Assembly (NCBI RefSeq): GCF_003260205.1
Contig: NZ_QERF01000005.1
Coordinates: 124,001 to 188,000, forward strand
Source: Winogradskyella tangerina
Lineage (GTDB): Bacteria; Bacteroidota; Bacteroidia; Flavobacteriales; Flavobacteriaceae
Length of the DNA stretch: 64,000 nt
Reading direction: 5' to 3'
Shown here: positions 9,704-52,258 of the stretch, in pieces
How the letters are laid out: each line of letters starts with the position of its first letter
Position numbering within the stretch: the stretch's first letter is position 1
Translations under genes and position numbers: made by a program
Notes under the pieces: generated by a model
Told to the model about the DNA's origin: nothing
The model's input: only the letters and a program-made list of their open reading frames with translations
The model's database searches: none

Positions 9704-10623
9704 TGAATATGAATTTTATTAAGCATATATTAAATCAATTACCTTATATCAGAGGCTTACATAGACGTGATCGACTTTATAGAGATAATGCAAATTTTTC
9801 TCCAGGGCATTTTTACTCTGTAATTCCTAATTTAAAAGAAGTTAAAGCTGATGAAGATCGCATCTGGAAGGGTCTCGAAAGCGACGGTATCGATGGAATA
9901 GATTTAAATACTAAACACCAAAAATCATTTCTGAAGAATTTGAGTCAATTTTATTCAGAAATACCGTTTACAGAGGCTGCAAAGGAAGGGATGAGGTATC
10001 ATTTCGAAAACCCTTATTATCTTCATACAGACGGTATAATTCTTTATGGTATGCTAAGGTATTTGAAGCCTAATCGCGTTATTGAAGTCGGCTCTGGCTA
10101 TTCATCCGCCTTAATGCTAGACGTGAATGATAAGTTCTTCGATTCTAATATAAATTTTGACTTTATAGAGCCCTATACAGAGCGCTTGGAAAAATTGATA
10201 AATCAGAATGATAAGGAAAAGGTGGCGATTCTGAAAAGTCGCGTCCAAGACGTAGATATTTCATTTTTCAAAACTTTAAAAGCAAATGATATCTTATTTA
10301 TAGATAGCACGCATGTTTCAAAATGCGGAAGCGATCTAAACTTTATTTTATTTGAGATACTTCCTGCATTAAACGAAGGTGTATATATTCATTTCCATGA
10401 TATTTTTTATCCGTTTGAATATCCAAAAGAATGGGTTTTTAAAGGATATAACTGGAATGAAAATTATTTACTTAGAGCTTTTTTGATGAACAATAATGAT
10501 TATAGTATCCAAGTATTTGCACATTATCTACATGCGCATCATAAAGAGGTCTATGCAGACATGCCATTGGCTTACAAAAATACGGGCGGAAATTTATGGC
10601 TGAAAAAAGAATCAAATAAATAG
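9703..10623 (+). CDS. class I SAM-dependent methyltransferase-like protein
   Basis: The central part contains RVIEVGSGYSSALMLD (about 126-141), a good SAM-binding motif I, followed by NFDFIEPYTERL as motif II. ILFIDSTHVSKCGSD and a histidine-rich stretch (YIHFHDIFYPF) come after. The fold pattern is that of class I methyltransferases of the O-methyltransferase/Methyltransf_24 kind. The start overlaps the preceding stop by one base (TAATG). This is the second methyltransferase of the locus. The acceptor is unknown. Confidence 0.65.
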   Translation: MNMNFIKHILNQLPYIRGLHRRDRLYRDNANFSPGHFYSVIPNLKEVKADEDRIWKGLESDGIDGIDLNTKHQKSFLKNLSQFYSEIPFTEAAKEGMRYHFENPYYLHTDGIILYGMLRYLKPNRVIEVGSGYSSALMLDVNDKFFDSNINFDFIEPYTERLEKLINQNDKEKVAILKSRVQDVDISFFKTLKANDILFIDSTHVSKCGSDLNFILFEILPALNEGVYIHFHDIFYPFEYPKEWVFKGYNWNENYLLRAFLMNNNDYSIQVFAHYLHAHHKEVYADMPLAYKNTGGNLWLKKESNK

Positions 10624-10626
10624 CAC

Positions 10627-11472
10627 TTGACGACACTATTATCCATAATAACCATTAATTATAACGATGCCAAGGGTTTGAAGAAAACCTTAGAAAGCGT
10701 TAAGAATCAGAGTTGGCAAAACTTTGAGCATATTGTTATTGATGGTAACTCTTCAGACGGAAGTGTTGAGGTATTGCAATCATATAGCTATGCGCCTTTA
10801 AATTGGATTAGCGAAGCAGATTCTGGTATATACAATGCCATGAATAAAGGCATCAAAAAAGCAAAAGGGAAATATCTATTGTTTCTCAATAGCGGCGATT
10901 ATCTGTTTAACAATGACACACTTTCAAATGTTAAGAACTATTTCGAAGCAGACATCTCGTTTCTTTGCGGAAATATGTATTATGAAAGAGATAGACAGCT
11001 AACAGTTAGAAAGCATCCTGATGTATTAACGTTTTCCTATTTAATCTCGAAGACAGTCTCGCATCCTTCAACATTTATTCTAAAATCGATGTTCGATACT
11101 TATGGGTTGTATAATGAAGAATTAAAAATCGTTTCAGACTGGGAGTTTTTTCTAAAATGTTTGGGTTTAAATGGCGAATCTTATCAAAAAATTGATGAGG
11201 ATGTAACCATCTTCAATACCGACGGAATTTCGTCAAATTCAGAAAACCTTAAACTGGTAAGCGATGAAAAAGCCATCGTGCTGAAAGCCTACTTACCAAC
11301 AGTGTTTAACAGTGAACACGATACCTATATTTTCAACCATTTCAAGGAAACCTCAAAACGATTCAAACTTTTAAAGGTTATTGATAAGAGTCCATTCTTT
11401 AGAAAGATTGCAACATTGTTTCTAATGATCATTAAAGGTGTATTAACCTTTACTAAAAAACTTGGATTGTGA
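10627..11472 (+). CDS. glycosyltransferase family 2 (GT-A)
   Basis: The N-terminus LLSIITINYNDAKGLKKTL is the canonical GT2 start, followed by IVIDGNSSDGS and SEADSGIYNAMNKGI, which resemble the WcaA/WbbL type. The DxD-like region is FLNSGDYLF near residue 96. The start codon is TTG at 10627; it gives the expected N-terminus and no ATG is available upstream in frame. The stop overlaps the next GTG by 4 bases. The product is an inverting transferase acting in the cytoplasm. Confidence 0.86.
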   Translation: MTTLLSIITINYNDAKGLKKTLESVKNQSWQNFEHIVIDGNSSDGSVEVLQSYSYAPLNWISEADSGIYNAMNKGIKKAKGKYLLFLNSGDYLFNNDTLSNVKNYFEADISFLCGNMYYERDRQLTVRKHPDVLTFSYLISKTVSHPSTFILKSMFDTYGLYNEELKIVSDWEFFLKCLGLNGESYQKIDEDVTIFNTDGISSNSENLKLVSDEKAIVLKAYLPTVFNSEHDTYIFNHFKETSKRFKLLKVIDKSPFFRKIATLFLMIIKGVLTFTKKLGL

Positions 11473-39153: not shown

Positions 39154-39167
39154 ATGACAAAAATCAT
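39154..39167 (+). promoter_or_regulatory. putative Crp/Fnr box of hemN
   Basis: ATGAC-AAAA-ATCAT is a palindrome of Crp/Fnr type (TGA-N6-TCA core). Its centre (39160.5) is 29.5 bases before the -7 element at 39190. The predicted position is about -40.5 from transcription start, as for class II activator sites. Confidence 0.68.
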
Positions 39168-39189
39168 ATTTTTTACAGTGCCTTACCAG

Positions 39190-39197
39190 TAATTTTG
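39190..39197 (+). promoter_or_regulatory. hemN -7 element TAATTTTG
   Basis: An exact TAnnTTTG match lies 19 bases before the hemN ATG. There is no TTG at the -33 distance, which is expected if an activator at the palindrome replaces that contact. Confidence 0.65.
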
Positions 39198-39216
39198 ATG
39201 TAAGACAAACATAAAA

Positions 39217-40581
39217 ATGTGCCAAAAGTTAGTAAATAAATATAATGTGGCAGGTCCACGCTATACCAGCTACCCAACGGTTCCGTATTGGAATGCGGAT
39301 TCATTTTCCTTAATTGGATGGGAAAACGTACTAAAACAATCCTTTGATGAATCTAACAAAAATGAGGGTATTAGCCTGTACGTGCACCTGCCATTTTGTG
39401 AAAGCCTTTGCACATTTTGCGGTTGTCATAAACGCATAACCAAGCGCCACGAAGTTGAGCTACCATACATTAATGCAGTTCTGAAGGAGTGGAGTCTTTA
39501 TCTAAAGTTGCTAGGTGAAAAACCAAAAATTAAAGAATTACATCTTGGTGGTGGTACACCGACATTTTTTTCGCCTGAAAATCTGAAGTATTTAATTTCA
39601 GAATTATTGAAAGTCTCGGAATTGGCCAAAGATTATGAATTTAGTTTTGAAGGCCATCCAAATAATACAACTGTAGAACATCTACAGGTCTTATACGATC
39701 TCGGATTTAGACGTGTAAGTTTTGGGGTTCAGGATTATAATTTGAGAATTCAAAAAGCAATAAATCGCGTACAACCCTTCGAGAATGTGAAGAGTGCAAC
39801 TGACTTGGCAAGACAGATTGGTTATACTTCAGTTGGACATGATATCATCTTCGGATTGCCTTTTCAAACGGAAGCAGATGTTATTGAGACGATCAGAAAG
39901 ACCGAAGCGTTAATGCCAGACCGAATTGCATTTTATAGCTATGCCCATGTGCCATGGATCAAAGGAAATGGTCAGCGTGGTTTTAAAGATGATGATCTGC
40001 CTAGTGCAGAATCTAAGCGTCAGCAATACGAAACTGGCAAGTATTTATTAGAGAAAGTTGGTTATGCCGAAATTGGTATGGATCATTTCGCGCTTAAGAA
40101 TGATAATTTATATCAAGCTATGCGAAATGAAAGCATGCACCGAAATTTTATGGGGTATACGGCCTCAAAAACACAGGCGATGATTGGCCTAGGTGTGTCT
40201 TCCATTAGCGATAGTTGGTATGGTTTTGCACAAAATGTAAAGTCCATTGAAGACTATTATGACTTAGTGAATCAAAATATTATTCCGGTTTATCGCGGTC
40301 ATATTCTTAGCGAAGAGGACCTTAAAATAAGACGACATATTCTCAATCTTATGTGTCATTTTAAAACCTCTTGGATAAGACCAGAAATGACTTTTGATGA
40401 ACTGCCGGAAGTCCTTATAAAACTTAAAGAATTAGAACAAGATGGTTTAATCACTTTTGAAAGAAAGCAATTGACCGTAACTGAAAAAGGAAGACCTTTT
40501 ATTAGAAATATTTGTATGGCCTTTGATTTGCTATTACAGCGTAAAAAGCCAGATACCCAATTATTTTCAATGACCATATAA
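39217..40581 (+). CDS. hemN: oxygen-independent coproporphyrinogen III oxidase
   Basis: This radical-SAM enzyme makes protoporphyrinogen IX without oxygen. The [4Fe-4S]-binding motif C61-x3-C65-x2-C68 lies in FCESLCTFCGCHK. ELHLGGGTPTFFSPENL and the GHDIIFGLPFQT stretch are family landmarks, and a C-terminal HemN domain with LNLMCHFKT follows. The 454-residue length is that of true HemN. The gene is preceded by a Crp/Fnr-type palindrome and a -7 box. Its grouping with cbb3 oxidase genes fits haem supply at low oxygen. The Usp gene starts 10 bases after it. Confidence 0.95.
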   Translation: MCQKLVNKYNVAGPRYTSYPTVPYWNADSFSLIGWENVLKQSFDESNKNEGISLYVHLPFCESLCTFCGCHKRITKRHEVELPYINAVLKEWSLYLKLLGEKPKIKELHLGGGTPTFFSPENLKYLISELLKVSELAKDYEFSFEGHPNNTTVEHLQVLYDLGFRRVSFGVQDYNLRIQKAINRVQPFENVKSATDLARQIGYTSVGHDIIFGLPFQTEADVIETIRKTEALMPDRIAFYSYAHVPWIKGNGQRGFKDDDLPSAESKRQQYETGKYLLEKVGYAEIGMDHFALKNDNLYQAMRNESMHRNFMGYTASKTQAMIGLGVSSISDSWYGFAQNVKSIEDYYDLVNQNIIPVYRGHILSEEDLKIRRHILNLMCHFKTSWIRPEMTFDELPEVLIKLKELEQDGLITFERKQLTVTEKGRPFIRNICMAFDLLLQRKKPDTQLFSMTI

Positions 40582-40591
40582 TACGAACACC

Positions 40592-41425
40592 ATGAAAAAA
40601 ATAATAGTACCCATAGATTTTTCAGAGCATTCTGAATTTGCTCTTGAAGCTGCAGCTAATCTAGCTCATAAATATGATTCTGAGCTCATTGTGCTGCATA
40701 TGTTAGAATTGTCTAATGCCATTCTTATTGCAGATGAAAACTCAATTAATGAGGAAGCTGTGTTTTATCTTAAACTTGCGGAGCAGAAGTTTGAAGCATT
40801 TTTAGACAAGCCTTATTTAGATGGTATTAAGATCACACCGATTGTGAAGCACTTTAAAGTTTGGAGTGAAGTGAATGATGTTGCCAATAAACACGATGCA
40901 AATCTTATTGTAATGGGTTCTCATGGTGCTAGTGGTGTTAAGGAAGTATTGGTAGGCTCAAACACTGAAAAGGTGGTACGTCATGCAGATGTTCCTGTAT
41001 TGGTGATAAAGCACAATCCTATTTTATTAGATTTTGAAAACGGTGTGTTTGCGAGTGATTTTTCAGAAGAGGCTATTGCACCATATCTGAATGCTAGAAT
41101 CACCTTCAAAAAACTGGGAGCTCGAATGCACTTAGTGTATGTTAATGCACCCGATGGCAATTTTAAAAGTTCAACTGAAATAAATAAGAAAGTGTCATTA
41201 TTCTTGAAAAAGGCCGATGGTGATCTCAATAATCTCGACAATGTTCATATTGTTTCAGACTATTCTATTGAAAAAGGTATTTTGAATTTTGCCAACACCA
41301 TTGGCGCAGATCTAATTGCTGTGGCAACACACGGAAGAAAAGGCCTTGCACATTTCTTTGAAGGAAGTATTTCAGAAGATATTGCTAATCATTCAACATT
41401 ACCTGTGATGACCTTTAAAATATAG
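40592..41425 (+). CDS. tandem universal stress protein
   Basis: Two Usp domains are fused: residues about 1-140 with KKIIVPIDFSEHSEFALEAA and the ATP-binding tail VMGSHGASGVKEVLVGSNTE, and about 150-277 with VATHGRKGLAHFFEGSISE. Both halves keep a G-x2-G-x9-G-S/T-like pattern, so nucleotide binding is likely. The gene is 10 bases behind hemN and should share its oxygen-linked promoter. The role is probably stress survival at low oxygen (inference). Confidence 0.9.
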   Translation: MKKIIVPIDFSEHSEFALEAAANLAHKYDSELIVLHMLELSNAILIADENSINEEAVFYLKLAEQKFEAFLDKPYLDGIKITPIVKHFKVWSEVNDVANKHDANLIVMGSHGASGVKEVLVGSNTEKVVRHADVPVLVIKHNPILLDFENGVFASDFSEEAIAPYLNARITFKKLGARMHLVYVNAPDGNFKSSTEINKKVSLFLKKADGDLNNLDNVHIVSDYSIEKGILNFANTIGADLIAVATHGRKGLAHFFEGSISEDIANHSTLPVMTFKI

Positions 41426-41469
41426 TTCTTGATGTTTATTAGTTAGTGTTATTTAATATCAAGTTTAAG

Positions 41470-41499
41470 CGCCAGAGATGTATTTCTCTGGCGTTTTTT
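41470..41499 (+). terminator. intrinsic terminator after the Usp gene
   Basis: A perfect 9-bp GC-rich stem CGCCAGAGA/TCTCTGGCG (41470-41478 and 41485-41493) is followed by six T residues. It closes the hemN-usp transcript. Confidence 0.92.
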
Positions 41500-41602
41500 G
41501 TTTCAGATAATTTGCGTTTAATTCCTATAAATATTCACTCAAGTACAAAGGCTTCAGTGTTAAGTGATATTAACAAACAATAAGCTAGAAAAAATTAAAT
41601 TT

Positions 41603-42304
41603 TTAATGGCAATCAATTGTGCTAGAAGCCATCTCAACGATAGGAGCAGGAGAGATGTATGGTATTCCAAGTCCTAGACCTCTTAAAATGAATAGAGCAC
41701 CGATGATGACTACAAATACAGGAATGGCATTCTGAATTCGTTGCTTTATCGTCTGATTCAGAAATTTACCCAAATATATCGCTGAGGTCATTAAAGGTAT
41801 TGTACCAATACCGAATAAAGTCATATAATAACTGCCTTCTAATAAGCTACCTGTGGCTACGGCACCAAAAACGGCCATATATACTAATCCACAAGGCAAA
41901 AAGCCATTAAGAAATCCAATGGTTAGATAGGTGTCAGCAGATTTTTTCTTGAGCGCTTGACCGAGCTTGGTTTTTACTTTCGAAATGAGTCGATTCAAAG
42001 GTTTAGAAAGATTGTATTTAGAGAAGGTTTTATATGGAATTAATACAACTACAATCATTAATACACCAATTGCGATAGATAATTGCTGCTGCACACCAAA
42101 GAGATAAAGGCTCTTTCCTAATAAACCAAAAACGAGACCTATAAGACTATAGGCCAACAATCTTCCGAAGTGATAAATACCGATCTGACTTACTTTTTTA
42201 AACGAATTAGATCGGTCTACGGGGAGCATAAAGGCTATAGGTCCACACATGCCAACGCAGTGTAAACTTCCTAATAAACCCAATATGAACGCCGAATAAA
42301 GCAT
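41603..42304 (-). CDS. TauE/SafE-like membrane protein of the cbb3 assembly locus
   Basis: This 233-residue protein has six or so membrane helices. It carries HCVGMCGP (H15, C16, M19, C20) in the first helix and FLPCGLVY in the fourth, a Cys/Met/His pattern suited to copper. Such SafE/UreH-type proteins sit at the end of cco operons and are thought to help copper handling or cytochrome assembly. It starts 1 base after the ccoH stop, so it is co-translated. Confidence 0.84.
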   Translation of the reverse strand: MLYSAFILGLLGSLHCVGMCGPIAFMLPVDRSNSFKKVSQIGIYHFGRLLAYSLIGLVFGLLGKSLYLFGVQQQLSIAIGVLMIVVVLIPYKTFSKYNLSKPLNRLISKVKTKLGQALKKKSADTYLTIGFLNGFLPCGLVYMAVFGAVATGSLLEGSYYMTLFGIGTIPLMTSAIYLGKFLNQTIKQRIQNAIPVFVVIIGALFILRGLGLGIPYISPAPIVEMASSTIDCH

Positions 42305-42305
42305 A

Positions 42306-42752
42306 TTAATAATTTATAGCCTCTTTGAATAAGTAAGTGTTATTATTGTAGGTCCAGTCTATTCTAATGTTCCAGCGACCATCTAGTAAACGTTTGTCAG
42401 GTATGAGCAAATTGTGGTTAGATAATGAAATAGGAGTTTCAAAATCTAGATGTTTATTAGATGGTCTGTAAAGGAACACTGAACCATTAATGGCTTTTAT
42501 ATCTAAATCTTCAGGGAAGGTAATTAATAGTCCGCCCTCTGTTTTTTTCCAGGTAATATTAGTCTTAAGGGATTTTGATTTTTCTTCTTTATCAATATCC
42601 GTTTGAAATTTTAATTCTTGTTGGTAATAATCTTCAACAACCAAATCGTGGTCATACTTATCATTTGCTGCCATATTTACCACGAAATACATGATAAATC
42701 CTATAAATCCTATAAATGCAATTACAATTGCTGTTCCCCAGTTAATTCTCAT
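42306..42752 (-). CDS. ccoH: cbb3 oxidase assembly protein CcoH/FixH
   Basis: One N-terminal membrane helix (about 6-27) is followed by a periplasmic domain of about 120 residues. AANDKYDHDLVVEDYYQQEL (29-48) is the FixH signature around the D-x-Y-D-x-D-L-V-x-x-D-Y-Y pattern. CcoH helps assemble and stabilise the cbb3 oxidase. The length of 148 residues is typical for Bacteroidota. A perfect inverted repeat lies just upstream. Confidence 0.88.
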   Translation of the reverse strand: MRINWGTAIVIAFIGFIGFIMYFVVNMAANDKYDHDLVVEDYYQQELKFQTDIDKEEKSKSLKTNITWKKTEGGLLITFPEDLDIKAINGSVFLYRPSNKHLDFETPISLSNHNLLIPDKRLLDGRWNIRIDWTYNNNTYLFKEAINY

Positions 42753-42766
42753 ACCCTTGATATTTT

Positions 42767-42787
42767 ATTCTGAAAACATTTCAGAAT
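42767..42787. other. perfect 9-bp inverted repeat between ccoG and ccoH
   Basis: ATTCTGAAA and TTTCAGAAT flank a 3-base loop in the 53-base gap between ccoG and ccoH. On the transcribed (minus) strand no T-run follows, so it does not look like a normal terminator. It could protect or cut the operon mRNA. Confidence 0.7.
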
Positions 42788-42805
42788 GTCATTATTACTT
42801 TTTTT

Positions 42806-44230
42806 CTAATTATAATTTCGCGGCCCTAAGAAGCCTACAGTAGTACTTTCAATGAATTTATCATTACTGTAGATGTCAATTCTCAGTTTAATTTTCCCGC
42901 CGGAAATATCTCTTTTCTTTAACTCAATAAATAATGTACCTTCAGCAAACTCTTGTGCTTTAATTATCATTTGTTCTGATGCTGAAACCATATTAATATC
43001 TCCTTCAACACCTCTAATTCTGAAACTTACATTTTCAATATCATTAGAAGTTTTATTGACCAACTTATAAGTGTAAACATTACTGATAATGTTATTATCC
43101 TTTTGAACATAAGATTGGCCCGGTAAACGAAGAATTCGAGCTTCCACGTCATTTCGAAGGGTTAGCATGCCTGCCAAGACACCGATCAGAATTACAAGTA
43201 CGGCTATATAGCCTTTCATGCGTGCTGTAAGTTTAAAAGGTGCTTTGTTTTCAATATTTTCTTCACTTGCATAACGAATAAGCCCTTTCGGAAGGTTGAT
43301 CTTTTCCATTATGGTATCACATTCATCAATACAAGCAGTACAATTCACACATTCTAATTGTGTACCATTTCTGATGTCAATTCCTGTCGGACAAACATGC
43401 ACACACTGAAAGCAATCGATACAGTCACCATGTCCTAAGGCTGCTCTGTCTTCATTCTTTCTGAATTTCTTACGACCATTTGGTCCTTCACCACGTTTGT
43501 GATCATAGGCCACCACGATCGATTTATTATCTAAAAGTACACCCTGCAAACGACCGTATGGGCATGCGATAATGCAGACTTGCTCTCTAAACCATGCGAA
43601 AACAAAATAAAAGACAGCAGTAAATATCAGTAACGGAATTAATGTTCCTAAGTGAGATGAAGGCCCTTCTTTTATGTAGTTAAGTAATTTATCTCCGCCA
43701 ATTAAATATGCCAGAAATACATTTGCAATTAAGAATGAAACCACTAAAAATATGAACCACTTCAGCAAACGTTTTCTGATCTTTTCAGCATTCCATTTCT
43801 GGCGATCTAAACGCATTTGTTTATTACGATCGCCATCGATCCAATATTCTATGCGTCTGAAGACCATTTCCATAAAAATGGTCTGTGGACAGATCCAACC
43901 ACAGAAAATACGACCAAATCCAACGGTGAATAATGTGATGAACACCACACCGATGATCATAGAAATTACAAAGAGATGAAAGTCTTGCGGCCAGAACGGG
44001 AAACCAAAAATATTAAATCGTCGCTCAAGGACATTGAACATTAAAAATTGGTTGCCATTGATTCTCACGAAGGGCGCTGCAAATAGAAAGGCTAATAAAA
44101 AATAGCTAACTAGTTTTCGCTTATCGTAATACCAGCCAGAAGGCTTTTTTGGAAATATCCAGTTACGTTTGCCCTCTTCATTGATAGTGCCAATAGAATC
44201 TCTAAATACTTCGTTTGCTGGCGTTTCCAT
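42806..44230 (-). CDS. ccoG: cbb3 oxidase accessory iron-sulfur protein CcoG (RdxA/FixG)
   Basis: This membrane-bound ferredoxin-like protein reduces copper during cbb3 oxidase assembly. It has about five helices, the GWICPQTIFMEMVFRRIEYW block (about 110-129), and the C-x2-C-x2-C-x3-C-P clusters in DCIDCFQCVHVCPTGIDIR and ECVNCTACIDECD. A C-terminal immunoglobulin-like domain follows the last helix (about 370-474). The length of 474 residues is usual. Confidence 0.94.
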   Translation of the reverse strand: METPANEVFRDSIGTINEEGKRNWIFPKKPSGWYYDKRKLVSYFLLAFLFAAPFVRINGNQFLMFNVLERRFNIFGFPFWPQDFHLFVISMIIGVVFITLFTVGFGRIFCGWICPQTIFMEMVFRRIEYWIDGDRNKQMRLDRQKWNAEKIRKRLLKWFIFLVVSFLIANVFLAYLIGGDKLLNYIKEGPSSHLGTLIPLLIFTAVFYFVFAWFREQVCIIACPYGRLQGVLLDNKSIVVAYDHKRGEGPNGRKKFRKNEDRAALGHGDCIDCFQCVHVCPTGIDIRNGTQLECVNCTACIDECDTIMEKINLPKGLIRYASEENIENKAPFKLTARMKGYIAVLVILIGVLAGMLTLRNDVEARILRLPGQSYVQKDNNIISNVYTYKLVNKTSNDIENVSFRIRGVEGDINMVSASEQMIIKAQEFAEGTLFIELKKRDISGGKIKLRIDIYSNDKFIESTTVGFLGPRNYN

Positions 44231-44263
44231 ACCTCACGTTTTGGGACGTTCCTATTTCTTAAA

Positions 44264-45256
44264 TTAATTGTTTATATCTGCAACGGTCTCACCTTCAAGT
44301 ATTACCTCTTCTTCAACAGGCTCAACTGCTTCTGATTCTTCTTCTGATGATTCACCATCTGTTTCTCCTGCAGATTCATCAACCCAAAGATCACCTTCAG
44401 CTTTTTTAGCTTTCGGGCCAGGCGTTGTACCTTGAAATTCTAATACATAACTAGCCACCTGAGCCATTTCTAGAGGTGTAAGCCCTTCTTTTTTCCAAGA
44501 CACCATACCTTTACCATCTCTACCACCTTCAGAAATTGTTCGGAATACATTCTTGATGCCTCCGCCCAATATCCAGTATTCATCGGTGAGATTCGGACCA
44601 ATATTACCACCTCCATCTGGTCTATGACACACCACACATTTTGCTTCAAATATGGCTTTACCAGCATTAAGATCTGATGCTTCTGTTAAGACTTCAACTG
44701 TATTAACATCAACTAAATTTTTGGCGTTTCTTCTGTATTCTTCAATAGCACGTTCCGCTTCTGCGATTTCAATTTCATACTCAACAAATTGGTCGTCTGC
44801 ATTAAAAACATGATAGCGAGCCATGTATACAACGCCAAAGATTATGGTAGCATAAAAGCCATATAACCACCATGGTGGTAGGCTATTATCTAGCTCTTTA
44901 ATGCCGTCATAATTATGATCTAGAATAATTTCACCTTCTTCTTCCATTGGTCTTGAGCCCAGAAGTTTCATATAGGTCTTTTTGATCCAAAGTACAAGCT
45001 TGGAAGGTGCTGCTTTTCGTGCATCATAGCGTGCCTTGGCTTCTTCATCTAAACTCTGATAAAGAATGTTATCCATTGAACCTACGATACCTTCAATAGC
45101 TAAAAGAATCAATAATACTAATAACAAAAAGAGCATTATAATTGGCTGTTCCATAAATGCTGGCTGATCGCCAGAATCAATGAAGTACTCTACGAGTCCA
45201 ACAATAGTTAGAAATACGACTGGGACTCTTATATATGATGGAATTAAATGTCTCAT
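44264..45256 (-). CDS. ccoP: cbb3 oxidase subunit CcoP, one haem c site
   Basis: Two or three hydrophobic segments in the first 150 residues (including the N-terminal pair and WWLYGFYATIIFGVVYMAR) precede a periplasmic cytochrome c domain. Only one C-x-x-C-H is present (C207-x2-C210-H211) with a distal Met in GKGMVSW. Proteobacterial CcoP has two such domains. The C-terminal 50 residues are very acidic. It passes electrons to CcoO and CcoN in the inner membrane. It overlaps ccoQ by 4 bases. Confidence 0.9.
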   Translation of the reverse strand: MRHLIPSYIRVPVVFLTIVGLVEYFIDSGDQPAFMEQPIIMLFLLLVLLILLAIEGIVGSMDNILYQSLDEEAKARYDARKAAPSKLVLWIKKTYMKLLGSRPMEEEGEIILDHNYDGIKELDNSLPPWWLYGFYATIIFGVVYMARYHVFNADDQFVEYEIEIAEAERAIEEYRRNAKNLVDVNTVEVLTEASDLNAGKAIFEAKCVVCHRPDGGGNIGPNLTDEYWILGGGIKNVFRTISEGGRDGKGMVSWKKEGLTPLEMAQVASYVLEFQGTTPGPKAKKAEGDLWVDESAGETDGESSEEESEAVEPVEEEVILEGETVADINN

Positions 45257-45438
45257 GATCTTGTATTATTATTTTGGTCTAACGGTAAATTACTAACTGA
45301 GGTGATGTATTCTTTTTTAGCTGTAATAACCCAATAAAACAAGGCTACAAAAAAGATAAAGAATATTAACAAGGATATGATCGGGTAGATTTCTATACCC
45401 GAGATACTATCCATATGATTTTTTACAAATTTTAACAT
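45253..45438 (-). CDS. ccoQ: cbb3 oxidase small subunit CcoQ
   Basis: The 61-residue protein has one membrane helix (about 17-40, YPIISLLIFFIFFVALFYW) and a short polar cytoplasmic tail. Size, position between ccoNO and ccoP, and the 4-base overlap with ccoP identify it as CcoQ/FixQ, which stabilises the complex. Confidence 0.86.
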   Translation of the reverse strand: MLKFVKNHMDSISGIEIYPIISLLIFFIFFVALFYWVITAKKEYITSVSNLPLDQNNNTRS

Positions 45439-45442
45439 GGTC

Positions 45443-47647
45443 TTATTGGTTTTGAGCAGTTGTGTTCGTTAAATCTTTTACTTTGATATCCGTACCTAGA
45501 CGTTGTAGATATGCAATAAGTGCAATAATTTCTCTGTCTTTCATCTCAACATAGTCTTCGCCATTTGCTAAAGCTTCTTTCTTGCCGCTTTCAAAAGACT
45601 CTAATAGATCAGGATCTTCTTTCAAACTTTTAACAATTGCTTCAGACTGAACATTCATCAATTGTTGTGCGTTAGTTATTTCATCCTCGGTGTAAGGAAC
45701 ACCTAGAGAAACCATGGCCTCCATTTTCTTTTCAGTCATAGATTTGTCTAATTCATTTCTGATTAGCCATTGATATGCTGGCATAATTGATCCCGGTGAC
45801 ATTACCTGTGGTTCATACATGTGCTTAAAGTGCCACGAGTCTAGATATTTTCCACCAACGCGGTGAAGATCTGGTCCGGTACGCTTACTTCCCCAAAGGA
45901 ATGGATGGTCGTAAACAAATTCACCAGCTTTTGAATACTCACCGTAACGTTCTACCTCACTTCTAAATGGACGAATCATTTGAGAGTGACAACTCACACA
46001 ACCTTCTCTGATGTAGAGATCACGTCCCTCTAATTCGAGTGGCGTATAAGGCTTAACACTACTGATGGTAGGTATATTTGATTCTACAACAATGGTTGGA
46101 ATGATCTGAACGATACCTCCAATTAAAATTGCTACTGTAGCATAAATAGTTAATAGTACTGGCTTACGCTCTAACCATGTGTGCCATCCTTCTCCTGCAA
46201 CTCTGCCTTTAGAAACACGTTGTAATGCTGGTGCTTCAGCCAATTCATCAGTAACTTTTGCGTTTGATCTAACTACGGTCATAATAACGTTATAAACCAA
46301 GATCAACATACCGATGAGATATAATGTACCACCAATGGCTCGCATCCAGTACATCGGAATAATTTCGGTTACGGTTTCAAGAAAGTTACCATAAACTAAA
46401 TTTCCATCAGGTCTGAATTGCTTCCACATACTTGCTTGTGTGAAACCAGCAACATACATTGGTAATGCATAAAGGATGATGCCTAATGTGCCAATCCAGA
46501 AATGAACATTTGCAAGTCCAACAGAATGTAGCTTAGTTTTAAATAGTTTCGGAATTAAGAAGTAGATCATACCGAAGGTTAAGAAACCATTCCAAGCTAA
46601 TGCTCCAACGTGAACGTGTGCAATGATCCAATCGGTAAAGTGCGCAATGGCATTCACATTTTTTAAGGAAAGCATTGGGCCTTCAAAGGTTGCCATACCA
46701 TAACCAGTAATAGCAACAACCATAAACTTCAGAACTGGATCAGTTCGAACTTTATCCCAAGCACCTCTTAAGGTCAAGAGACCGTTGATCATACCACCCC
46801 AAGATGGTGCAATCAGCATTACTGAGAACGCAACACCTAAATGTTGTGCCCATTCTGGTAGCGCTGTATACAATAAGTGGTGAGGTCCAGCCCAGATATA
46901 AATAAATATTAAGGACCAGAAGTGAACAATAGATAGTCTATAAGAGTAGACAGGTCTATTGGCAGCTTTAGGTACAAAATAGTACATCAAGCCTAAGAAT
47001 GGTGTAGTAAGGAAGAATGCAACAGCATTATGTCCGTACCACCACTGTACCAAGGCATCTTGTACACCTGCATAAACTGAATAACTTTTTAAACCACTAA
47101 CAGGCAATTCTAAACTGTTAAAAATATGGAGTACAGCAACGGTTACGAATGTTGCGATATAAAACCAAATAGCAACATATAAGTGGCGTTGGCGACGTTT
47201 TAAAATGGTTCCAATCATATTGATACCAAAAACAACCCAAACCAATGCGATTGCAATGTCAAAAGGCCATTCGAGTTCGGCATACTCTTTAGATGTTGTA
47301 ATACCTAACGGTAAGGTAATTGCAGCACCAACAATAATTAATTGCCATCCCCAAAAGTTGATATTACTTAGTAGATCGCTAAACATTCTCGCTTTAAGTA
47401 AACGCTGCATTGAGTAATAAACACCTGCAAAAAGTGCGTTACCAACAAATGCAAAAATGATCGCATTAGTATGCAATGGTCTTAATCGGCCAAAACTCAG
47501 CCACGAAATACCATCGGTCATGTTAGGGAATAAAAACATAAAGGCCAGAATAAGCCCAACAAGCATCCCGACCACACCAAAAACTATGGTAGCGTAGAGG
47601 AATTTTTTGACGATTTTATTATCGTAATAGAATTGTTGCATTTCCAT
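45443..47647 (-). CDS. ccoNO: fused cbb3 oxidase subunits CcoN and CcoO
   Basis: The 734-residue protein joins the catalytic subunit and the monohaem subunit. Residues about 1-480 are CcoN, with twelve helices and His ligands in PLHTNAIIFAF, WWYGHNAVAFFL, AGPHHLLYTA and IIAHVHVGALAWNG. A short linker and one helix (about 505-525) lead to CcoO, with the haem c site C550-x2-C553-H554 (CVSCHSQMIRPF) and GPDLHRVGGKY. The complex is a high-affinity proton-pumping terminal oxidase for low oxygen. Such N-O fusions are known in Bacteroidota. Confidence 0.94.
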   Translation of the reverse strand: MEMQQFYYDNKIVKKFLYATIVFGVVGMLVGLILAFMFLFPNMTDGISWLSFGRLRPLHTNAIIFAFVGNALFAGVYYSMQRLLKARMFSDLLSNINFWGWQLIIVGAAITLPLGITTSKEYAELEWPFDIAIALVWVVFGINMIGTILKRRQRHLYVAIWFYIATFVTVAVLHIFNSLELPVSGLKSYSVYAGVQDALVQWWYGHNAVAFFLTTPFLGLMYYFVPKAANRPVYSYRLSIVHFWSLIFIYIWAGPHHLLYTALPEWAQHLGVAFSVMLIAPSWGGMINGLLTLRGAWDKVRTDPVLKFMVVAITGYGMATFEGPMLSLKNVNAIAHFTDWIIAHVHVGALAWNGFLTFGMIYFLIPKLFKTKLHSVGLANVHFWIGTLGIILYALPMYVAGFTQASMWKQFRPDGNLVYGNFLETVTEIIPMYWMRAIGGTLYLIGMLILVYNVIMTVVRSNAKVTDELAEAPALQRVSKGRVAGEGWHTWLERKPVLLTIYATVAILIGGIVQIIPTIVVESNIPTISSVKPYTPLELEGRDLYIREGCVSCHSQMIRPFRSEVERYGEYSKAGEFVYDHPFLWGSKRTGPDLHRVGGKYLDSWHFKHMYEPQVMSPGSIMPAYQWLIRNELDKSMTEKKMEAMVSLGVPYTEDEITNAQQLMNVQSEAIVKSLKEDPDLLESFESGKKEALANGEDYVEMKDREIIALIAYLQRLGTDIKVKDLTNTTAQNQ

Positions 47648-47657
47648 ATTAAAAAAA

Positions 47658-47843
47658 TTAGTCAGATTTTGTTTGTATTGATTCTTTAGAAGGTTCTGTT
47701 ACAAGTTCATCTTCAAATAACATGCGAACTGAAGGCGTATAGCTATCGTCGTATTGACCTGATTTTACAGCCAATAAAAAAACGATAAAGAAAGCCATGC
47801 CAACAATGACGCTAACCGTTAAAACAATGTATATAACACTCAT
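47658..47843 (-). CDS. ccoS: cbb3 oxidase assembly protein CcoS
   Basis: The 61-residue protein has one N-terminal helix (about 3-26) and the family motif AVKSGQYDD (27-35) just after it, ending in a charged tail. CcoS is needed to mature the oxidase cofactors. It is the first gene of the long minus-strand cco operon and starts about 17 bases after the predicted transcription start. Confidence 0.88.
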   Translation of the reverse strand: MSVIYIVLTVSVIVGMAFFIVFLLAVKSGQYDDSYTPSVRMLFEDELVTEPSKESIQTKSD

Positions 47844-47863
47844 ACCTATTTGAAGTTATGGTT

Positions 47864-47871
47864 CAAATTTA
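47864..47871 (-). promoter_or_regulatory. cco operon -7 element TAAATTTG
   Basis: On the minus strand TAAATTTG matches TAnnTTTG exactly. It lies 20 bases before the ccoS ATG. No TTG is found at the -33 distance. Confidence 0.68.
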
Positions 47872-47893
47872 CTGTTGAACCTTTTTTTAAAAC

Positions 47894-47907
47894 ATGACTT
47901 TTATCAT
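47894..47907 (-). promoter_or_regulatory. putative Crp/Fnr box of the cco operon
   Basis: ATGAC-TTTT-ATCAT (wider palindrome ACATGA...TCATGT) has its centre at 47900.5, exactly 29.5 bases upstream of the -7 element. This is the same geometry as at hemN. It lies in the 74-base gap between ccoI and ccoS. Confidence 0.72.
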
Positions 47908-47917
47908 GTCGTTTTTT

Positions 47918-50293
47918 TTATTTTAATTTTCGCCCTAAAAGATTGGTACATATTGTTGTGAATACGACGATACTTATAGAACTTAATGGCATCAGAATAG
48001 CTGCTACAACAGGTGCTAACTGACCAGTGACAGCAAAATATAATCCGATGACATTGTAAATAAATGAGAGTAGGAAACTCCATTTTATTATGGTGATTGC
48101 AGATCTTGAAGCTTTAATAAATGGATATAAATCTTGAAATTTTGTAGCATCCAAAATAGCATCGCAAGCAGGTGAGAAGACATTCACATTTTCGGAGATG
48201 GCGATACCTACATCGCTCTGTGCAAGAGCTCCTGCATCATTTAGACCATCACCAACCATTAGTACTTTTGCACCTTCAGACTGATGGTATTTTATAAACT
48301 CTAATTTGTCTTCTGGTTTTTGATTAAAAATCAGTTTAGTTTTTGACGGTAATAGCTTTTTCAAATTTTCGCGTTCACCTTCATTATCTCCTGATAGAAT
48401 AACGAGATCGAAATGTTGTTTCAATTGATTGAATAACTTAGAAACACCTTTTCTGTAGCTATTATAAAAGGTAAATTTCCCTTTATATTTTTCATTACTA
48501 GTGATATGAACTGTAGTGTTCAGAGCCGATGATTGTTCGGGTTGGCCAACAAAGCTAGCCGATCCAATTCTGAGATTAATTTGATCATGCTTCGCTTCAA
48601 TACCTTTACCGATGTGCTCTTCAAATTCATCGAGAGTAACAATATTATGTTCTTCAAGTATATTATATAAGGTTCTGCTCAACGGATGATTAGACCCACG
48701 TAGGGAGTTCTTCAATACCAGACTTTCAGACGCAGACAATTGTTCGCCATCGTAAAGGGCATTACTTCTTTCATTTGAGGTAATGGTTCCTGTTTTATCA
48801 AAGATTACGGTATTAATCTGTGCTAATTGCTCGATTACACTTGCATTTTTGATATAAAATTTAAGTTTACCAAAAAGGCGCAATAAGTTTCCGAAGGTGA
48901 ATGGTGCAGACAAAGCAATGGCACACGGACATGCAATAATCAATACTGCTGTAAAGACATTCATGGCCTTACTCGCATCGGTGAATAGCCAATAAGAAGT
49001 GGCAATAATTGCAATGCTAAGAATTGCGATAGTAAAATGCTTACTAATGGCGTTGGTTATGTTGGTAAAACCGTCTTCTTTATTTTTATTGAACACATCA
49101 TTACTCCACAATTGAGTTAAATAACTTTGTTCAACAGACTTTAGAGCTTCAAGCTCAATAACCCCAGCTGTCTGTTTTCCTCCAGCAAAAAGTTTATCAC
49201 CAGATACCTTGGTTACACTCTGAGATTCGCCAGTAACAAAACTATAATCAATTTTGGCTCTGCCATTAATAAGAATTCCATCAACAGGAATTAGTTCTTC
49301 ATTCCTTATTAATAATCGATCGCCTTTTTTAATGTCATAAACCTGAATGGCATTTTCGGTGCCATCTCTTTCAATTTTTGTAATGGCTATAGGGAAGTAG
49401 GATTTATAGTCGCGCTCAAACGAAAGGAAATTGTAGGTTTTCTGTTGGAAAAATTTTCCAACCAATAAAAAGAATACCAATCCGGCCAGACTATCAAAAA
49501 ATCCCGAACCGATATCGAGTGCTATTTCAATGGTACTTCTTATAAATAATACCGAAACACCAAGCGCAATCGGAACATCAATATTTAATAGTTTAGCCTT
49601 TAAGCCTTTGTATGCTGAAATGAAATAATCCTGGGCAGAATAGAAAACTACCGGGACTGATAGCGCAAACATCAACCATCTAAAGAAGTGCTTGTATTTT
49701 TCTAACCAGAATTCATTAATTTCGAAATACTCCGGAAATGATAAAAACATAATATTTCCGAAGGCAAATCCTGCAACACCAAGTTTGTAGATTAGAGTTC
49801 GGTTAATGTGCTTCTTTCCAGATTCGAAATCATCTAAGCTGATGTAAGGTTCATAACCAATAGAGCTTAATAGCTGAACGATCGACTTAAGATCTGTAGT
49901 TTCAGAGTTATAGGTAACCCTCACGGTTTTCTTACCAAAATTGACTTGAGAGTCGGTAATATTTGGGTTGAGTTTTTTCAGATTTTCAAGGATCCATATA
50001 CACGAACTACAGTGAATATGAGGAATGTAAAGTGTAGCGATCTCTATATTGTCACTTCTAAATTCTGTAAGTTTTTCAATGATATTTTCTTGAGATAGAA
50101 AATCATATTTGCCTTCAATTTCCTTCGGAATTGCTCCAGGTGAATTCTGTAGATCGTAATAACAGGTTAGATCATTTTCGCTAAATATTTCAAAAACGGT
50201 CTTACACCCATTACAGCAGAATGACTTTTCTTGAAATAAGATCGGATGATTTCCACAAACGTCACCACAATGAAAACAGGATTTGTTTTCCAT
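47918..50293 (-). CDS. ccoI: cbb3-associated copper P-type ATPase CcoI/FixI
   Basis: This inner-membrane P1B-ATPase supplies copper for the cbb3 oxidase. The N-terminal Cys-rich region (C6, C9, C13, C26, C27, C30) is typical of FixI and is followed by a heavy-metal-associated domain with C95-x2-C98. The ion site is CPC 455-457, the phosphatase TGES is at 354-357, the phosphorylated Asp is D499 in DKTGT, and GDGLNDAGAL hinges the nucleotide domain. The length of 791 residues is normal. It is separated from ccoS by a probable promoter, so it is its own transcript with possible read-through. Confidence 0.94.
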   Translation of the reverse strand: MENKSCFHCGDVCGNHPILFQEKSFCCNGCKTVFEIFSENDLTCYYDLQNSPGAIPKEIEGKYDFLSQENIIEKLTEFRSDNIEIATLYIPHIHCSSCIWILENLKKLNPNITDSQVNFGKKTVRVTYNSETTDLKSIVQLLSSIGYEPYISLDDFESGKKHINRTLIYKLGVAGFAFGNIMFLSFPEYFEINEFWLEKYKHFFRWLMFALSVPVVFYSAQDYFISAYKGLKAKLLNIDVPIALGVSVLFIRSTIEIALDIGSGFFDSLAGLVFFLLVGKFFQQKTYNFLSFERDYKSYFPIAITKIERDGTENAIQVYDIKKGDRLLIRNEELIPVDGILINGRAKIDYSFVTGESQSVTKVSGDKLFAGGKQTAGVIELEALKSVEQSYLTQLWSNDVFNKNKEDGFTNITNAISKHFTIAILSIAIIATSYWLFTDASKAMNVFTAVLIIACPCAIALSAPFTFGNLLRLFGKLKFYIKNASVIEQLAQINTVIFDKTGTITSNERSNALYDGEQLSASESLVLKNSLRGSNHPLSRTLYNILEEHNIVTLDEFEEHIGKGIEAKHDQINLRIGSASFVGQPEQSSALNTTVHITSNEKYKGKFTFYNSYRKGVSKLFNQLKQHFDLVILSGDNEGERENLKKLLPSKTKLIFNQKPEDKLEFIKYHQSEGAKVLMVGDGLNDAGALAQSDVGIAISENVNVFSPACDAILDATKFQDLYPFIKASRSAITIIKWSFLLSFIYNVIGLYFAVTGQLAPVVAAILMPLSSISIVVFTTICTNLLGRKLK

Positions 50294-50321
50294 AATTTAA
50301 TTTGCTCATTTATACCTGTAA

Positions 50322-50329
50322 CAAAGGTG
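50322..50329 (-). promoter_or_regulatory. weak -7-like element of ccoI (CACCTTTG)
   Basis: CACCTTTG differs from TAnnTTTG only at the first base. It is accepted because it lies 29.5 bases from the centre of the shared palindrome, the same distance as in the hemN and cco promoters. Confidence 0.45.
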
Positions 50330-50351
50330 ACATTAACTTCATATTTAAAAT

Positions 50352-50365
50352 ATGATATTTGTCAT
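50352..50365. promoter_or_regulatory. putative shared Crp/Fnr box, ccoI / crp-fnr gene
   Basis: ATGAT-ATTT-GTCAT is the reverse form of the same palindrome. For ccoI (minus strand) it has the activating spacing. For the regulator gene (plus strand) its centre is only 15.5 bases before the -7 element, which would overlap the -33 region and suggests self-repression. Confidence 0.68.
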
Positions 50366-50373
50366 GGAATTTT

Positions 50374-50381
50374 TATATTTG
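50374..50381 (+). promoter_or_regulatory. -7 element TATATTTG of the Crp/Fnr gene
   Basis: An exact TAnnTTTG match 23 bases before the ATG at 50405. Confidence 0.65.
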
Positions 50382-50404: not shown

Positions 50405-51082
50405 ATGGGTAAATGTGAACAGTGCATTATAAAGGAATTTAACGCTTTGAAATCATTGACAAAAGAAGAATTGATGCGTGTTTCTGCATGTAAAACAGGC
50501 CGATTATACAAAAAAGGGCAGATCATTTTTGAAGAAGGAGAGACGTTAAATGGTGTATACTGCGTTAGAGACGGTGTATGTAAATTGTCTAAACTTAGCG
50601 AAAATGGAAAGGATCAGGTTGTAAAACTTGTGGTTAAGGGAGGACTTTTAGGCAAACGTTCATTAGTTACTGAACAAAAAACAAACCTTAGTGCTGTTGC
50701 TTTAAATGATATGGAAATGTGCTTCATTCCGAAGAGCGAGATAATGAGCGACCTGTCTAAAAATCCTAAATTCACAATGGATGTTTTACGTGAAATGGCT
50801 CACGACCTTAAAGAATCTGACGAGTCATTAGTGAATATGGCTCAAAAATCGGTGAAGCGTCGCATGGCCGAAATTTTAATGTACATACATGATAATTTTG
50901 GTACAGACAATGAAGATTATTTAAGCATAGTTCTATCTAGGGAAGATTATGCGAGTATTGTAGGAACTGCTACTGAATCTGCCATAAGAATCTTGTCTCA
51001 ATTTAAAAAAGAAGGTCTTATTTCTACACGTGGTAAACAGATTAAGATTGAAGACTACGGAAGCCTTAAATGGATTGAATAG
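50405..51082 (+). CDS. Crp/Fnr-family transcription regulator, possibly oxygen-sensing
   Basis: A cyclic-nucleotide-binding-like beta roll (about 30-115), a dimer helix (about 120-145) and a helix-turn-helix (about 165-215) make up this 225-residue DNA-binding protein. C4, C7 and C106 line up with E. coli FNR Cys20, Cys23 and Cys122. The Cys29 position is Asn13, but C29, C53 and C59 are available. An iron-sulfur cluster is therefore possible but not shown. The recognition helix keeps the Glu...Arg pair (ESAIR) that contacts TGA/TCA half sites. The flanking palindromes and cco/hem genes suggest it controls them. Confidence 0.86.
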   Translation: MGKCEQCIIKEFNALKSLTKEELMRVSACKTGRLYKKGQIIFEEGETLNGVYCVRDGVCKLSKLSENGKDQVVKLVVKGGLLGKRSLVTEQKTNLSAVALNDMEMCFIPKSEIMSDLSKNPKFTMDVLREMAHDLKESDESLVNMAQKSVKRRMAEILMYIHDNFGTDNEDYLSIVLSREDYASIVGTATESAIRILSQFKKEGLISTRGKQIKIEDYGSLKWIE

Positions 51083-51103: not shown

Positions 51104-52258
51104 ATGTCTTACAAAAAGCACCAACCCAAGTATTCCAATCAATTCCCTGCAATTGAAGATTTAGCTAAAAAAGCAAAAAAAAGAATACCGCATGTCTCGT
51201 GGGAGTATTTAGAATCTGGAACAGGCGATGAAGCTTTGTTAGAACTAAACAGAGAAGCCTTTAAAGCTATTCAGTTTACACCGCGATTTTGTAAAGGCCA
51301 CTTAGAAGCAAATATTAGCACTTCACTTTTCGGTAAGCATTATTCTAGTCCGATCGGAATAGCTCCAGTAGGTTTAACTGGTCTTATTTGGCCAAAGGCC
51401 GAATTGATTCTTGCTAGCGCAGCAAATCGGCTGCAATTACCATTTTGCCTCAGTACTGTAGCCACTGAAACACCAGAACAGGTCGGGTCCGTGGTGGGCG
51501 AACAAGGTTGGTTTCAACTGTATCCTCCGAAGTCTTTGGATTTGGCTTATGAGCTCTTAGATAGAGCGAAACAATCTGGTTTTCATACGTTGGTCATAAC
51601 TGCAGATGTACCTATGGCAAGTCGCCGTGAACGCACTAAGCGCGCTGGTATGCGCATGCCACCAAAAATAACTGCTGGTTTAATCTGGGACGGAATTAAG
51701 CATCCATTTTGGTCACTTCAAACGTTGCAAAGAGGACTACCTAGACTTCGAACTGTTGAGACCTATGCAGATCAAACCGATTTTAAGTTTGTTAGTGGTT
51801 TTGTTGGTAATCGATTAGGTGGCACGCTCGATTGGGAGTATTGCAAAGCCCTGAAATCCTATTGGGAAGGTACTGTAATTATTAAAGGAATTTTACACCC
51901 TAAGGATGCTGAAATGGCTATTGAGGCAGGGATGGATGGCATTTGGATATCTAATCACGGCGGTCGTCAGTTTAATGGTGCACCTGCTTCGATTGAGGTA
52001 TTATCAGATGTGGCGGCAATGGTTTCTAAGCAAGTACCGATTTTATTTGATAGTGGTGTAAGAACGGGATTAGATGTAATGCGTGCTTTGTACCTAGGTG
52101 CAGATTTTGTTATGCTTGGGCGACCATTTTTATATGGAGTTGCGGCAATTGGTAAATATGGACCTGATCATGTTGCTCATATTCTAAATGACGACTTAAA
52201 GAATAATATGGTTCAATTGGGTGTGAGAACAATAGAGGAGCTCAAGTCTTTATCTTGA
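51104..52258 (+). CDS. FMN-dependent alpha-hydroxy-acid dehydrogenase/oxidase
   Basis: This TIM-barrel flavoenzyme oxidises an L-2-hydroxy acid such as lactate. The catalytic His is H285 in SNHGGRQFNG, with the FMN-phosphate site FDSGVRTGLDV and LGRPFLYG after it. SPIGIAPVGLTGL and LSTVATETPEQV lie in the N-terminal half. The 384-residue length fits the LldD group. It starts 21 bases after the Crp/Fnr gene and is probably co-transcribed, feeding electrons to the respiratory chain. The precise substrate is unknown. Confidence 0.88.
   Translation: MSYKKHQPKYSNQFPAIEDLAKKAKKRIPHVSWEYLESGTGDEALLELNREAFKAIQFTPRFCKGHLEANISTSLFGKHYSSPIGIAPVGLTGLIWPKAELILASAANRLQLPFCLSTVATETPEQVGSVVGEQGWFQLYPPKSLDLAYELLDRAKQSGFHTLVITADVPMASRRERTKRAGMRMPPKITAGLIWDGIKHPFWSLQTLQRGLPRLRTVETYADQTDFKFVSGFVGNRLGGTLDWEYCKALKSYWEGTVIIKGILHPKDAEMAIEAGMDGIWISNHGGRQFNGAPASIEVLSDVAAMVSKQVPILFDSGVRTGLDVMRALYLGADFVMLGRPFLYGVAAIGKYGPDHVAHILNDDLKNNMVQLGVRTIEELKSLS

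Follow-up and report, generated by a model that had tools for sequence, protein, structure and literature searches.

The stretch analysed here, 64,000 nucleotides of the Winogradskyella tangerina genome (contig NZ_QERF01000005.1, positions 124,001 to 188,000; hereafter the window), contains a cluster of cbb3 oxidase (cco) genes between hemN and a gene for a regulator of the Crp/Fnr superfamily. Boxes of Crp/Fnr type lie upstream of hemN, ccoS and ccoI, each at the same distance from a promoter element, and the observation of three equally spaced boxes is real, with an arrangement conserved far beyond chance. We consider it likely that they are class II sites centred at −41.5, that they serve promoters without a −33 element and that they are read within the genus mainly by the product of the regulator gene at 50405–51082. 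Gene names were based on profile searches against NCBIfam and curated models with their cutoffs, together with Pfam domains, and the name ccoI on P-type ATPase families and domains and on its position in the cluster. The features of the region are the following:

39154–39167, plus strand: Crp/Fnr box ATGACAAAAATCAT upstream of hemN, predicted centre −41.5, 29.5 bases before TAATTTTG
39190–39197, plus strand: TAATTTTG, −7-type promoter element of hemN, gap of 23 bases from the box
39217–40581, plus strand: hemN, oxygen-independent coproporphyrinogen III oxidase (TIGR00538, 439 bits, cutoff 325)
40592–41425, plus strand: universal stress protein gene (usp), 10 bases after hemN (PF00582)
41603–42304, minus strand: DsbD_2-type membrane protein at the end of the cco cluster (PF13386)
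42306–42752, minus strand: ccoH (FixH; PF05751)
42806–44230, minus strand: ccoG (TIGR02745, 433 bits, cutoff 317)
44264–45256, minus strand: ccoP (PF14715, FixP_N; TIGR00782, 106 bits, under the cutoff of 180)
45443–47647, minus strand: ccoNO fusion, cbb3 oxidase subunits I and II (NF011053, 1343 bits, cutoff 1080)
47658–47843, minus strand: ccoS (TIGR00847, 39 bits, cutoff 28)
47864–47871, minus strand: TAAATTTG, −7-type promoter element of ccoS-ccoNO, gap of 23 bases from the box
47894–47907, minus strand: Crp/Fnr box upstream of ccoS (ATGATAAAAGTCAT on this strand), 29.5 bases before TAAATTTG
47918–50293, minus strand: ccoI-type copper P-type ATPase, 791 residues (heavy-metal P-type ATPase families, HMA and ATPase-cat_bd)
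50322–50329, minus strand: CACCTTTG, degenerate −7-type element of ccoI, first T missing (nAnnTTTG)
50352–50365, facing both sides: Crp/Fnr box common to ccoI (minus strand, ATGACAAATATCAT) and the regulator gene (plus strand)
50374–50381, plus strand: TATATTTG, −7-type element of the regulator gene; centre of the shared box 15.5 bases upstream, predicted at −27.5
50405–51082, plus strand: FNR-like Crp/Fnr regulator, 225 residues, with C4, C7, C53 and C106 as well as C29 (PF00027 and PF13545)

A preliminary description of this stretch had placed the motif ATGAC-N4-ATCAT before hemN, ccoS and ccoI, and a search of the window returned exactly three matches, at 39154–39167 (plus), 47894–47907 (plus) and 50352–50365 (minus), with two further places at one mismatch. 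The motif had been called a palindrome; the repeat is imperfect, its inner C facing an A, and the box family is TGAY-N4-RTCA. Read from the sequence, the distance from box centre to first element base was 29.5 bases at all three promoters, as had been proposed, and no TTG was found near −33 at the hemN, ccoS or ccoI promoter, again as described. The third element had been regarded as weaker, which is borne out by the replacement of its first T. For a chance control, the whole window was shuffled 300 times with dinucleotide composition preserved. The pattern TGAY-N4-RTCA-N23-nAnnTTTG, seen three times in the window, had a shuffle mean of 0.03 and a maximum of 1, and the expectation that three equal spacings would hardly arise by chance thus held, as none of the shuffles gave three such pairs. 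The strict pair with TAnnTTTG was seen twice and in none of the 300 shuffles. The bare box TGAY-N4-RTCA was not enriched in the window (10 seen, shuffle mean 10.9), and ATGAC-N4-ATCAT reached three copies in one of the 300 shuffles. Because the bare box occurs at chance level while the spaced pair lies far above the shuffles, the signal is the spacing.

In Flavobacterium psychrophilum, according to PMC9723704, TAnnTTTG occupies −12 to −5. If its first T is taken as −12, a gap of 23 bases places the centre of the inverted repeat, 29.5 bases upstream of that T, at −41.5, and the boxes at hemN, ccoS and ccoI are therefore putative class II Crp/Fnr sites, in keeping with the value of about −41 suggested earlier; the transcription starts of the three promoters are predicted in the same way.

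Conservation within the genus was read from the regulator neighbourhoods of 20 other genomes, with the window as the 21st locus. The ccoS box was followed by a strict TAnnTTTG at gap 23 in all 19 loci that hold the region, and genome G008, read separately, has the box with TAATTTTA at the same gap. At ccoI, all 21 loci had a box followed by nAnnTTTG at gap 23, the first element base being T in only one of them; the hemN box was present in all 15 readable loci (14 strict, one with TAATTTTA), the other six stretches lacking hemN plus its upstream DNA. The box columns had a mean information content of 1.80–1.88 bits vs 0.78–1.31 bits for the spacer; the ccoS flank beyond the element was also fairly conserved (1.47 bits).

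A wider sample consisted of the best 80 of 589 confirmed CcoNO loci, largely flavobacterial, in which the distance from TGAY-N4-RTCA to TAnnTTTG was tabulated on both strands for gaps of 0–59, with a reversed box and a reversed element as controls. The histogram had a sharp peak of 90 pairs at gap 23, flanked by 6 pairs at gap 22 and 5 at gap 24; smaller groups appeared at gaps 45–46 (16 and 5) and 9–10 (9 and 7), and all other gaps had 0–4. The reversed box gave at most 1 pair per gap and the reversed element at most 6 (gaps 0 and 1), with none at gap 23 in either control. Tandem boxes 22 bases apart accounted for 7 of the 16 gap-45 pairs, the remainder being mixed. Such tandems, exactly 22 bases apart (−41.5 and −63.5), were noted at L184, L192, L195, L206, L208, L210, L130 and L133, in records that are not titled Flavobacteriaceae or that come from other families of the order. 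Counted by promoter in the loci with readable upstream DNA, ccoS had a box of any kind in 64 of 77, at gap 23 in 43 with a strict element and in 56 with one element mismatch allowed; hemN had a gap-23 box in 20 of 31, all strict; and ccoI had a box in 51 of 62, at gap 23 in 3 (strict) or 39 (one mismatch). Upstream of the regulator matches, some of which are paralogues, a box was present in 34 of 46, with TAnnTTTG at gap 9–11 in 16. Elsewhere in the order, genome G027 carries two boxes in tandem, the nearer of them at gap 23, G037 is alike with a degenerate element, and G036 and one locus of G028 have a box at a different spacing; no upstream box was found in G025, G030 or the other G028 locus, and none suitably placed in G026.

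The box between ccoI and the regulator gene faces two promoters. On its regulator side, TAnnTTTG stands at gap 9 (−27.5) in 16 of the 21 genus loci and at gap 10 or 11 in two, with none of these gaps in three. Because gap 23 corresponds to −41.5 and gap 9 to −27.5, one box probably activates ccoI and represses the regulator gene, and the regulator would thus probably repress its own synthesis from the shared site. The first T of the ccoI element was replaced in 37 of 40 named promoters (T in 3 of 40), compared with 0 of 53 at ccoS and 0 of 20 at hemN. The simplest reading of this base pattern is a conserved weak promoter that would depend more on its activator.

The preliminary description had further proposed a small cbb3-haem regulon and suggested a genome scan as a check. 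In the genome of W. tangerina itself (3.52 Mb, 16 contigs), ATGAC-N4-ATCAT regardless of spacing occurred 20 times vs 12 for the reversed control, and pairs of box and element at gaps 8–38 numbered 19 (10 + 9) vs 2 + 2 in the reversed controls. Nine of the 19 pairs had gaps of 22–24, against an expectation of 1.8 under a uniform distribution of gaps (binomial 3e-5), and all nine precede a gene start located 18–37 bases past the element (for the mdh look-alike, 37 bases, taking as its start the first ATG of the conserved N terminus). Target genes outside the window were named by eye. Besides hemN and ccoS of the window, gap 23 preceded look-alikes of a ferredoxin-NADP reductase gene and of genes for a universal stress protein and an outer-membrane protein, gap 22 those of mdh, a persulphide-dioxygenase-like protein and udk, and gap 24 that of sdhC. 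Only two of the nine promoters in this genome thus belong to cbb3 or haem genes. A relaxed search with the first T left free yielded 8 matches vs 3 in the control, a difference that is weak on its own. Among 26 genomes of the genus, the strict gap-23 pattern was found 237 times vs 5 for the reversed control (47-fold); none of 29 sampled sites (L100–L128) lay in a same-strand frame of at least 100 codons, and a start codon followed at 6–51 bases in 24 of them and at 123–202 bases in five. In a phylum sample of 148 genomes, there were 122 sites vs 3 control in 15 Flavobacteriaceae and 69 vs 4 in 20 other members of the class, and most of the remaining genomes showed no strict gap-23 site.

With boxes at gaps of 22–24 before unrelated genes in this genome (seven of the nine sites) and gap-23 sites throughout the genus, a regulon confined to cbb3 and haem genes is rejected, and 'small' no longer applies. 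By its distribution in sequence, the spaced geometry is a general Crp/Fnr promoter type in these bacteria, of which the cbb3-haem sites would form one module, and the spacing is probably used in common by Crp/Fnr paralogues. Of the earlier reading, the mechanism is probably right, the scope was too narrow, and the naming of the regulator is plausible but unproven. Genes resembling usp recur with such boxes in other genomes (L100, L104, L105, L106, L110 and L125). Series of −41.5 boxes also lie near other large Crp proteins in G005:C1:3270-3306k, G019:C23:87-113k and G013:C4:126-166k; those in G005 and G019 often read TGACCTAGGTCA, and the three series are possibly respiratory or denitrification islands.

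The presence of a Crp/Fnr gene in the same cluster was confirmed by PF00027 (67.8 bits) and PF13545 (51.5 bits), both over cutoff, and by agreeing fold matches. The best curated match was the FNR subfamily PRK11161, with a score of 91.3 bits, which is under its cutoff of 228. Cluster cysteines of FNR occupy positions 20, 23, 29 and 122, and three of the four coincide with cysteines of the regulator when the alignment is read by eye; the alignment to Aliivibrio fischeri FNR is nearly full length and pairs CxxC and C106 with cysteines of FNR, but C53 with an alanine. The recognition helix GTATESAIR contains E191 and R195, invariant in 27 aligned sequences, and these are the residues that we take to contact a TGA half site. 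The TGA/TCA half sites assumed earlier from knowledge of the family thus fit both helix and box family.

Cysteines were surveyed in 73 aligned sequences, of which 27 belong to alignment A1 and 46, paralogues included, to the named loci. CxxC, C53 and C106 were all present in 64; two had only C106, and one lacked CxxC, its start probably having been annotated too late. No sequence of the 73 had a cysteine in the column of FNR C29. The regulator's own Cys29 was considered as the third cluster ligand and rejected, being present in only 40 of the 64 four-cysteine proteins. At L077 (G028), about 3 kb from a cbb3 locus, a relative has lost all four cysteines together. The cysteine pattern points to an iron-sulphur site in which one ligand has moved, unless C53 has a different role. 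On the strand pairings of FNR, C53 and C106 might face opposite sides, a point against C53 as a ligand. In the AlphaFold model the N terminus is poorly placed (pLDDT below 50 at residues 1–6 and 8–11). A fold search returned 2gau first and a holo-FNR sixth, with TM scores of 0.77–0.79; this ranking is not specific for FNR, because any Crp/Fnr protein would fit. We tentatively raise the possibility, to which we give a little under even chances, that flavobacteria use a separate lineage of FNR-type sensors of oxygen with a C-X2-C-X45-C-X52-C cluster, in which C53 would replace C29 of FNR and which would act in much of the family as a cbb3/haem activator at low oxygen, from −41.5 on promoters of Bacteroidota type, and repress itself at the box shared with ccoI.

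Six proteins of the genome exceed the HTH_Crp_2 cutoff, the window regulator and five others, among which, with domains assigned by eye, are a 349-residue receiver-Crp-like protein (REC-Crp, C12:308k) and two whose recognition helix reads REV-x-x-R. Some boxes, such as those of the ferredoxin-NADP reductase and persulphide-dioxygenase-like genes, have G and C as their outer bases; these resemble the CRP site, TGTGA-N6-TCACA, and may belong to the two REV-x-x-R proteins. Regulator and CcoNO occur together in 20 of the 26 genomes of the genus (W. tangerina, 18 others and G008), and four have neither (G001, G012, G015 and G020); CcoNO without the regulator is known from none of the 26, with G017 outside the CcoNO test. 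G040 has the regulator at 88% identity with its own box, no CcoNO and one strict site in its genome; strict sites were absent from G012 and G020, which have neither gene. In G040:C6 (L245, about 8600–10700) the cco-hemN block is gone and a broken ccoI runs straight into a SodC-like gene whose counterpart in the window lies beyond hemN.

Several observations weigh against assigning the boxes to this regulator throughout. One of the five further HTH_Crp_2 proteins has a similar recognition helix, and CxxC, C53 and C106 are all missing in six of the 73 relatives. No ccoS box was found upstream in 13 of the 77 named loci. Among these are, from the family, Mangrovimonas, Arenibacter latericius, Myroides marinus and one record titled Flavobacteriaceae (L199), and from outside it Pedobacter, Pontibacter, Hufsiella, Roseivirga, two Flammeovirgaceae, Melioribacteraceae and Calditrichota; A. 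latericius (61%) and M. marinus (51%) nevertheless have a homologue of the regulator. In a regulator search of 23 genomes, picked mostly for having no close regulator near ccoNO, seven flavobacterial genomes that carry CcoNO gave no match above 38% (Mangrovimonas, Maribacter sedimenticola, Psychroflexus, Aquimarina AU474, two Aequorivita and Tenacibaculum agarivorans). Six of the seven keep the gap-23 ccoS box (L158, L160, L165, L168, L170 and L213), and another Crp protein must therefore read it there; the seventh (L147) has no ccoS box and keeps that of ccoI. The link between regulator and boxes, offered earlier as an inference, thus gained from co-occurrence within the genus and lost from boxes without a close homologue and from two homologues without a ccoS box. 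Among possible readers of the cbb3-haem boxes, the neighbouring FNR-like regulator is the leading candidate, in a pairing that is not exclusive. Two adjacent copies of the regulator, with 86% and 60% identity to that of the window, lie at L086 (G019:C26), and at L233 and L234 (T. agarivorans and M. sedimenticola) there is another Crp protein with C-X2-C-X4-C near its start, nearer to the classical FNR spacing.

Both regulators, the FNR-like protein and REC-Crp, might instead bind the same boxes and bring two signals to one promoter. We judge this somewhat unlikely; it overlaps with the preferred assignment, and the chances given for the readings therefore do not sum to one. Promoters of the same box family and spacing lie near both genes, and genomes in which a single one of the two turned up still have the boxes: REC-Crp was matched at 46–58% in all six of the seven regulator-less genomes that were queried, and in G007, G008, G014, G017 and G024 the REC-Crp query found the FNR-like protein only, with the boxes kept. 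Either protein can evidently be the sole candidate reader, as far as homologue searches go. The outer box flanks at ccoS and ccoI vary, however (A..T or C..T), and may mean different readers.

REC-Crp as the main reader, using the same class II sites in answer to a two-component signal rather than to oxygen sensed directly, is rather improbable in our estimation. Its recognition pattern, ATE-x-x-I-R, is the same (the receiver domain was recognised by eye), the space from its gene to the usp gene that follows contains a −41.5 box (G000:C12:308432-309071; L037 and L041), and it is the protein found in the queried genomes without a close FNR-like homologue. Against this, the five genomes just named keep their cco boxes with the FNR-like protein only, and matches as long as REC-Crp (356 and 354 codons) occur in G001 and G015, which lack CcoNO.

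Repression, with the distance to TAnnTTTG reflecting promoter occlusion only, would suit the regulator gene, where the box sits at a repressing distance; at ccoS and hemN the gap is exactly 23 without a −33 element, as class II activation predicts, and repression would allow more positions than the one dominant sharp peak of the histogram, so that a repressor site is very unlikely. Coincidence or a conserved non-regulatory repeat, for which one could cite the chance frequency of the bare box in the window and the 12 of 20 genomic ATGAC-N4-ATCAT matches inside open frames of at least 100 codons, has practically no standing beside the enrichment of the spacing (237 vs 5 in the genus, 90 vs 0 in the named loci).

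Under the preferred reading, with the neighbouring FNR-like regulator at class II boxes, falling oxygen would lead the regulator, probably carrying an oxygen-labile iron-sulphur cluster, to dimerise. The dimer would bind ATGAY-N4-RTCAT and replace the −33 contact, and RNA polymerase would be recruited to the predicted units ccoS-ccoNO-ccoP-ccoG-ccoH, ccoI and hemN-usp, the last two genes being probably on one transcript. At the box shared with ccoI, the regulator would cover its own promoter (at about −27.5) and damp its own synthesis while turning ccoI on, and the non-T first base would make the ccoI promoter weak and activator dependent. A gene resembling lactate dehydrogenase (by eye, 51104–52258) starts 22 bases after the regulator gene and is possibly on one transcript with it; it is a neighbour also in L080 and L082.

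PMC9723704 reports that oxygen limitation strongly raises cbb3 oxidase in F. psychrophilum, and also haem-synthesis enzymes; in its main text the words 'Fnr' and 'Crp' do not occur. Flavobacteriales CRP/FNR homologues are predicted to be MalR-like carbon sensors in PMC8510549; they share superfamily and order with the regulator. Oxygen is the likelier signal, because the regulator is FNR-like and tied to cbb3 and hemN. In the literature library searched, no experimental or predicted FNR regulon for flavobacterial cbb3 genes was found, and the accessible parts of PMC13277301 and PMC12531629 have nothing on the regulator at 50405–51082.

The footprint can be put to the test: it yields a promoter rule (TGAY-N4-RTCA, then 23 bases, then TAnnTTTG), points to a candidate regulator and singles out cysteines for mutation. 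The arrangement also illustrates how class II activation may be superimposed on the −7 element of Bacteroidota promoters, which are unusual in this respect. In proteobacteria, the way in which low oxygen controls cbb3 oxidase is understood in detail; the proposed regulon would be a counterpart in flavobacteria, which are abundant marine, freshwater and fish-associated bacteria.

FNR of Escherichia coli and A. fischeri, like the proteobacterial FnrP, FnrL and Anr, recognises TTGAT-N4-ATCAA and acts in class II position at −41.5. The regulator shares with these systems the Crp fold, a CxxC and a later cysteine on FNR cysteines, the class II geometry and probable control of cbb3 oxidase and hemN. 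It differs in that the C29 column is without cysteine in all 73 sequences and C53 accompanies CxxC and C106 in 64 of them, in its TGAY-N4-RTCA box on a TAnnTTTG promoter, and in falling short of the curated Fnr cutoff. FixK and FixK2 of rhizobia activate fixNOQP, and FixK is not known to have the N-terminal iron-sulphur cysteines; like them, the regulator is a candidate activator of Crp/Fnr type for cbb3 oxidase genes, and unlike FixK it has CxxC, C53 and C106 and reaches only 56 bits in the FixK model (cutoff 300). Its best match in the PDB, in both sequence and fold, is 2gau, a Crp/Fnr structure from Porphyromonas gingivalis, which, unlike the regulator, has no cysteine at the C106 position and whose alignment begins after the CxxC.

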